64,000 nucleotides of DNA from Clostridia bacterium (GTDB taxonomy: Bacteria; Bacillota; Clostridia; Oscillospirales; CAG-272), in contig JAGAVJ010000026.1 of the NCBI GenBank assembly GCA_017942005.1, positions 1 to 64,000 of the forward strand, given 5' to 3'. Below the pieces are notes generated by a model. That model did not search any database, had not been told where the DNA came from, and saw only the letters and a list, made by a program, of their open reading frames with translations. Below, in pieces: positions 35,481 through 35,897 of this stretch. Within the stretch, counting starts at the first letter, position 1. Every line of letters starts with the position of its first letter. A program made the position numbers and the translations under genes.

Positions 35481-35582
35481 AAAAACGAAAGAATCCTTTC
35501 TTTTATTTTGATTATAGGAGGGAGCAGTGACGTGTTTTATGATATATCGCCCCCTTTGGGCGATGAAGGTTTTTTCAAACAG

Positions 35583-35806
35583 TCTTCTGAAATTAGCCGA
35601 TTGTAAAAGTCATAATTTTATATTGCCCGTAGGGCAATATATCAATAAATGCGTCGTTATGACATAAGACGTTCAACGTCTTATGTCGTGCGGGTATTCC
35701 CGCCAAAAAAGACACCTTTAAAGCGACCAAAGGGAGCCATCGGACTGCGTCAGTCCGATGAAACCAATTGGAAAACGAAGTTTTACAATTGCCTATCTTC
35801 TGAAAT
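35583..35806. mobile_element. Candidate MITE: hairpin-rich insert with inverted ends and 11-bp direct repeat
   Basis: The 11-bp TCTTCTGAAAT occurs at 35583-35593 and 35796-35806. Just inside, TAGCCGATTGTAAAA (35594-35608) and the complement of 35781-35795 (TAGGCAATTGTAAAA) agree at 13 of 15 positions. The 202-bp interior is a row of hairpins: TATTGCCCGTAGGGCAATA, GACATAAGACG/CGTCTTATGTC, GCGGG/CCCGC and CATCGGACTG/CAGTCCGATG. No ORF. It lies in the 417-bp gap between ddl and the DUF2752 gene. Confidence 0.72.
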
Positions 35807-35897
35807 GGAAAGGAGAGGGGAGTCCGCAAAACGCTTTCTGCGGCATCCTATTGTATGCGGACCGCGGCAGAAAACAGAACCCCCAGTGCAGAATTTT

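Follow-up and report, generated by a model that had tools for sequence, protein, structure and literature searches.

What kind of element sets a chain of tight hairpins, without any gene, between two copies of an 11-bp direct repeat, and what decides where it lands? The question is raised by a 202-bp gene-free segment (35594–35795, + strand) of a 64,000-nucleotide stretch of DNA, hereafter the window, from Clostridia bacterium (Oscillospirales, CAG-272; assembly GCA_017942005.1, contig JAGAVJ010000026.1, positions 1 to 64,000), the boundaries of which were set by aligning 22 copies and by the duplication lying outside both ends. A first-pass annotation of the window had read the segment as a miniature inverted-repeat transposable element (MITE) moved by a transposase encoded elsewhere. 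We confirmed that a tight-hairpin element with inverted ends and an exact flanking duplication is present, and its anatomy is that of a MITE. The family to which it belongs is probably one of transposase-dependent, non-autonomous DNA transposons addressed to the motif AAGGAG. The variable length of the duplication, the insertion point set by AAGGAG and an RNA-like interior shared across families go beyond that annotation, and an ordinary MITE would need neither of the last two.

Insertion at a fixed distance from AAGGAG

To define the insertion site we used the 47 copies for which the two ends and the flank beyond each were available: 22 from the genome of the window itself (G000, 57 contigs), 22 from G002 and G007, two genomes of the same genus, and 3 from G321, which by sequence is the same as Clostridiales bacterium GWF2_38_85. 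Two of 37 and three of 12 candidates were dropped because they lay at contig ends or had a single end, and eight odd or solo units were handled apart. When the flanks were scanned away from the target duplications with the rule [AGT]GGAG or AGGAT, a Shine-Dalgarno-like motif was found to begin exactly 4 nt outside one edge in 35 of the 47 copies and 3–5 nt outside it in 39; a control offset in the range 20–95 had 0.25 such copies on average and at most 2. The column consensus at +4 to +9 is AAGGAG (edge-NNN-AAGGAG). The opposite edge floats, giving duplications of 9–16 bp, and no copy (0/47) has a motif at 3–5 nt on both sides. Under a wider rule that accepts 3, 4, 5 or 7 nt, the motif lies to the right of the element in 27 copies, to the left in 13 and on neither side in 7. 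The right-to-left ratio is 11:9 in G002/G007 and 16:4 in G000, where the skew perhaps reflects selection against antisense copies in leaders.

Hexamers resembling a −10 box, scored in 40 copies, lie anywhere between 0 and 81 nt away, and 6 copies make up a minor peak at 16 nt. Judged by these hexamers there is no fixed distance to a sigma-A promoter, and it is therefore AAGGAG, not a promoter, that serves as the ruler. Most copies are located in leaders, since an open reading frame (ORF) of at least 50 codons follows the motif in 36/47 under a permissive rule, with one doubtful case, as could be expected if insertion were blind to sequence and the Shine-Dalgarno pattern came solely from selection on tolerated positions. 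Selection in leaders would not, however, fix a spacing of 4 nt, which 35 of 47 copies show against 0.25 per control offset, nor does the scatter of the −10-like hexamers agree with it, and we regard sequence-blind insertion as extremely unlikely. The genes behind the motif include what we take, from their translations, to be AspRS, Lon and peptide deformylase; those adjacent genes that are recognisable are housekeeping genes, and no transposase was noticed among them by eye, no family search of them having been made.

In the window copy AAGGAG occupies 35810–35815 (+ strand), 3 nt beyond the right duplication, without the start of a long ORF behind it, so that in this copy the motif probably does not function as a Shine-Dalgarno sequence. 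Because some motifs, that of the window copy included, do not precede a called gene, the AAGGAG motif on DNA seems sufficient for targeting. A rough gene caller divided AAGGAG sites into 39 Shine-Dalgarno, 69 other non-ORF and 114 intra-ORF sites, a division too crude to separate motif from function. In a scan of G000, covering about 458 kb, for direct repeats that end 3–5 nt short of AGGAG, nothing stood out except known members of the family; chance repeats are so numerous that the offset-4 totals were no higher than those at control offsets.

Target duplications and empty sites

The first-pass annotation had rested on an 11-bp repeat at both sides of the element, and this duplication (TCTTCTGAAAT) is indeed exact at 35583–35593 and 35796–35806. 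Across the 47 copies its length is 11 bp in 15, 12 bp in 13, 13 bp in 9, 10 bp in 4, 15 bp in 3, 9 bp in 2 and 16 bp in 1, and the two repeats are identical in 33. When the direct repeats were compared with 2162 mismatched left/right pairs, 45 of the 47 scored above the 99% level and 36 above the maximum of the mismatched pairs; L021 equalled the 99% level and L127 failed to reach it.

Evidence for mobility was obtained by searching the joined flanks of three insertions, before thrC-like, def-like and HD-domain-like genes, against 9 genomes of the genus. G003 has the thrC-like and def-like sites uninterrupted, as have G007 for the thrC-like and G002 for the def-like one; the HD-like site is uninterrupted in G002, only its gene part being matched in G003. 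Thus empty sites were found for all three insertions, the exact single copy of the duplicated bases being blurred by divergence of the leaders. Element-free relatives that still carry both repeats, the finding that the first-pass annotation had said would tell against it, were not seen; one uninterrupted site was found instead. Since the element is multicopy, flanked by duplications and missing from the corresponding sites of relatives, we conclude that it is mobile and MITE-like. It is short and non-coding and has terminal inverted repeats as well.

A conserved, RNA-like interior

A core of the form TGCGTCGC-hairpin-AAAAGACACCTTYAAAGCGACCAAAGGGAGC is common to G000, G002/G007, G008 and GWF2_38_85, and is shared with a different family of the order. 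Among 10 core sequences both sides had changed at 5 of 14 pairs, and the covariation score of 0.305 compares with 0.104 in shuffled controls, which ignore relatedness, and with at most 0.076 in slid controls, which keep relatedness and agree. Likewise, in the 22 copies of G000 both sides had changed at 8 of 51 pairs, compared with 2.5 in shuffles. Because covariation exceeds both the shuffled and the slid controls, the interior is kept in paired form, whether selection maintains it or palindromes are repaired as the element is copied.

A conserved and covarying structure within gene leaders is also what a host regulatory RNA spread by recombination instead of transposition would look like. This explanation is disfavoured by the exact ends, the target duplications, the occurrence of both orientations and the empty sites, and it is the least probable of all those considered here.

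Search for a mobilising enzyme

The proposed mover, a transposase encoded elsewhere, is not supported beyond inference: no coding element with matching ends turned up in G000 or G007, and none of the families tested occurs in all the genomes that bear the element. Among the matches listed, exact or near-exact ends in G000 and G007 were element-length pairs, solo units or contig ends. Profile searches for RVT_1, DDE_Tnp_1, rve and Y1_Tnp were carried out on draft assemblies, in which each absence taken alone is weak evidence. None of the four was present in every element-bearing genome searched, and we rejected them as the partner; Mutator-like, IS66, IS110, IS6, TnpB and Cas1 families lay outside this search. 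DDE_Tnp_1 (PF01609) had no match in element-bearing G000, G007, G321 and G072, which speaks against IS4/IS1634-type mobilisation, and rve had none in G007, G008 and G072, which speaks against IS3/IS30/IS21/IS481-type mobilisation. Around 25 reverse transcriptase, DDE_1 and rve loci, element ends occurred only at chance level, with 3 mismatches.

RVT_1 was matched in 7 of 14 genomes, and none of the matches was in G002 (94% complete), G007, G388 or G302. This result bears on RNA-mediated retroposition, in which, much as in target-primed reverse transcription, a structured RNA would be copied into DNA at a specific nick beside AAGGAG and the second nick would be loosely placed. Such a process would explain why one edge is fixed while the other varies, giving duplications of 9–16 bp, and would account for the conserved, covarying core. 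It predicts a single orientation, however, whereas both are seen in G002/G007 and in G000 alike; inverted ends are present; and the genomes richest in near-identical copies, G002 and G007, are among those without an RVT_1 match. We therefore hold retroposition to be unlikely.

Y1_Tnp was matched in 5 of 7 genomes, and some of the matches we take to be RAYT-like in sequence. Together with the hairpin chains, this would suit palindromes of the REP/BIME type moved by a RAYT, that is, by a Y1 transposase. Yet Y1_Tnp was unmatched in element-bearing G008 and G321, and of 11 Y1 loci scanned just one (L241) contained an element core, at a distance of about 1 kb from an IS200-like gene. Y1 enzymes would not be expected to leave target duplications, and the presence of these in 45 of 47 copies already disfavours this mode of movement, which we judge very unlikely.

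A model for AAGGAG-addressed insertion

The explanation that we favour, a non-autonomous DNA transposon family addressed to AAGGAG, would work as follows. A transposase acting in trans would bind the near-symmetric ends, and the target complex would meet AAGGAG on one side, where one strand transfer would be fixed; the other end would be joined 9–16 nt away, loosely measured, and gap repair would yield the target duplication. Near-symmetric ends would permit both orientations. As AAGGAG outside genes is often a Shine-Dalgarno sequence and intragenic insertions would be lost, the survivors would be located in 5' leaders with the ribosome-binding site intact, and the element, when transcribed, would provide a hairpin-rich leader.

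Several observations weigh against this explanation. By the motif rule 7 of the 47 copies have no motif at 3–7 nt, although several of the seven have degraded forms of it (CGGAG, ATGAGG, AGATGG). The length of the duplication is more variable than is usual for DDE transposases. Searches of G000 and G007, the assemblies of which are incomplete and break at copies, brought up no gene-carrying element with these ends. Finally, the conservation and covariation of the interior are superfluous for a transposase that recognises ends. A different Shine-Dalgarno-addressed system, in which the conserved structured RNA would take part in mobility as a guide, cofactor or intermediate with an unrecognised type of enzyme, and would equip essential genes with ready-made structured leaders without damage to their ribosome-binding sites, seems to us rather improbable.

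Transposons that choose their site by a signal of gene expression are rare, and the bacterial case that we found measures from promoters (available part of PMC3942029); an element that takes its distance from the ribosome-binding site would add a second ruler of this kind. It would, if so, explain how non-coding insertions accumulate before essential genes, and it could serve as a tool for the genome-wide placement of leader sequences. The fixed versus floating target edge makes the mechanism of strand transfer directly testable.

Comparison with known elements

Bacterial MITEs, as described in the available part of a review (PMC10969869), share with the present family a short, gene-free body, inverted ends, direct repeats, AT-rich intergenic sites and stable hairpins. 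The present family differs from that description in its variable duplication anchored at AAGGAG, its RNA-like core across families and the failure to find a parent element, and the main text of the review, as far as it was available, contains neither Shine-Dalgarno nor 'ribosome binding'. More generally, we found no description of Shine-Dalgarno-directed or -anchored insertion in the open-access literature, most subscription papers being outside that scope.

The TnGBS, ISLre2 and ISKra4 elements, which have Mutator-like transposases, insert 15–17 bp upstream of sigma-A −35 boxes, and for the ISKra4 group, with its nearly perfect inverted repeats, both orientations have been reported (PMC3942029, in the sections available). 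The likeness lies in targeting a gene signal and in near-symmetric ends used in both orientations; in contrast to those elements, which encode their transposase, the family described here has AAGGAG and not the −35 box as its ruler, and no candidate transposase. Target duplications of variable length are likewise known for IS1549 and IS1634, at 8–514 bp, for which the authors, in the accessible text (PMC2266710), note that there is no mechanistic model. These, however, are full insertion sequences with a transposase, whereas PF01609 was unmatched in the four element-bearing genomes named above.

Pneumococcal BOX and RUP are also short structured repeats, BOX being modular, and they are considered mobile parasites; the likeness is one of description. 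According to the available part of PMC3049150, they are overrepresented between convergent genes, and its sole Shine-Dalgarno passage does not concern insertion sites. REP/BIME with RAYT resemble the present elements as palindromic extragenic units and differ in that here there are target duplications and no consistent Y1 partner.

Anatomy of the window copy

The inverted ends had been described as imperfect over 15 bp, and we found that TAGCCGATTGTAAAA at 35594–35608 (+) and TAGGCAATTGTAAAA at 35781–35795 (−), read on the other strand, are identical at 13 of 15 positions, the right repeat doubling as the outer arm of a terminal hairpin. At least four perfect hairpins had been proposed inside, and four were located on the + strand, namely hairpin 1 (35620–35640, 9 bp, 3-nt loop), hairpin 2 (35661–35687, 11 bp), which is missing in a short form of about 173 bp, hairpin 3 (35690–35703, 5 bp) and hairpin 4 (35738–35760, 10 bp, 3-nt loop), followed by the terminal hairpin (35765–35791), which has 12 pairs and, in the window copy, one mismatch. 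In the 22 copies both sides had changed at 3 of the 9 pairs of hairpin 1, and the short-form counterpart of hairpin 3 covaries across species. The conserved core (35650–35738, +) consists of TGCGTCG, hairpins and AAAGACACCTTTAAAGCGACCAAAGGGAGCC, and contains a long-range stem between 35653–35656 and 35724–35727. Folding of 35560–35830 gave a z-score of −6.74, equalled by none of 200 shuffles.

Among the ORFs of the window, those that cross the element are antisense or mechanical run-through, so that no fitting gene is present inside it, in agreement with the first-pass annotation. The window had no match in Rfam 15 at the gathering score, and sub-threshold hits from permissive scans of the window copy and of L089, the copy from GWF2_38_85, were rejected as chance. 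Beside the intact copy, at 35542–35570 (−), lies a relic of the element type of G002/G007 (93% over 27 of 68 query bases).

Copies, relatives and variant forms

A nucleotide search of G000 returned 40 matches, including self-complementary hairpin hits and solo ends, and in 22 copies of 172–243 bp both ends could be located. With further copies in related species, this bears out the expectation that a second copy exists. Three length forms fit one common alignment: about 173 bp, about 202 bp with an extra hairpin, and 229–243 bp, in which an insertion is added in hairpin 4 and, in two copies, hairpin 2 is lengthened too. G002 and G007 carry many near-identical copies of a sister type of 173 and 222 bp with the ends TAGGCAATTGC.../...GCAATCGATTA. 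Its 5' end was matched 37 times in G007, 15 times in G002 and once each in G008 and G000, the sole G000 match being the relic adjoining the window copy. Many draft contigs of G007 and G002 terminate within an element copy, and the family therefore breaks short-read assemblies.

GWF2_38_85 (L089) carries a clear relative beyond the genus. A core model searched against 394 genomes of the order matched 20 at E ≤ 0.01, many of them weakly. Weak R1 hits in other families of the order, with E of 1e-3 to 1e-2, have chance matches among them, and only G321 and, by eye, some of the hits in G072, G302, G388 and G315 look like relatives. In a 391-genome sample of the class only the genome of the window matched at E ≤ 1e-4, and there were zero matches in phage and plasmid collections and in a pattern scan of IMG/VR viral contigs.

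A second architecture, whose modules are a GGCGGCTTTGCCGCC hairpin, AAAACACC and GCCGAGGGGAG...GGCGATAAGCGCG and whose terminal hairpin is similar, was observed in L119, L129, L130 and L150 (minus strand of contig C20 of G000, about 4.0 kb into the locus). It is found not only in G000 but also in other families of the order, and in L130 AGGAGG stands, by eye, 4 nt from the duplication. L027/L155 (contig C46 of G000) is a hairpin chain that has hairpin 1 in common, a different 3' end without an inverted repeat and, by eye, an imperfect duplication before AAGGAT. Solo hairpins of 35 bp were seen at L029 and L031–L033; at two of these loci, L029 and L031, the duplication is exact but for a single mismatch and AGGAG lies 4–5 nt off, and solo hairpins can also be explained by deletion between direct repeats of the left end and the inner arm. 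In L014/L148 (contig C57 of G000) two elements are in tandem, one having inserted directly beside the terminal hairpin of an older, different one.
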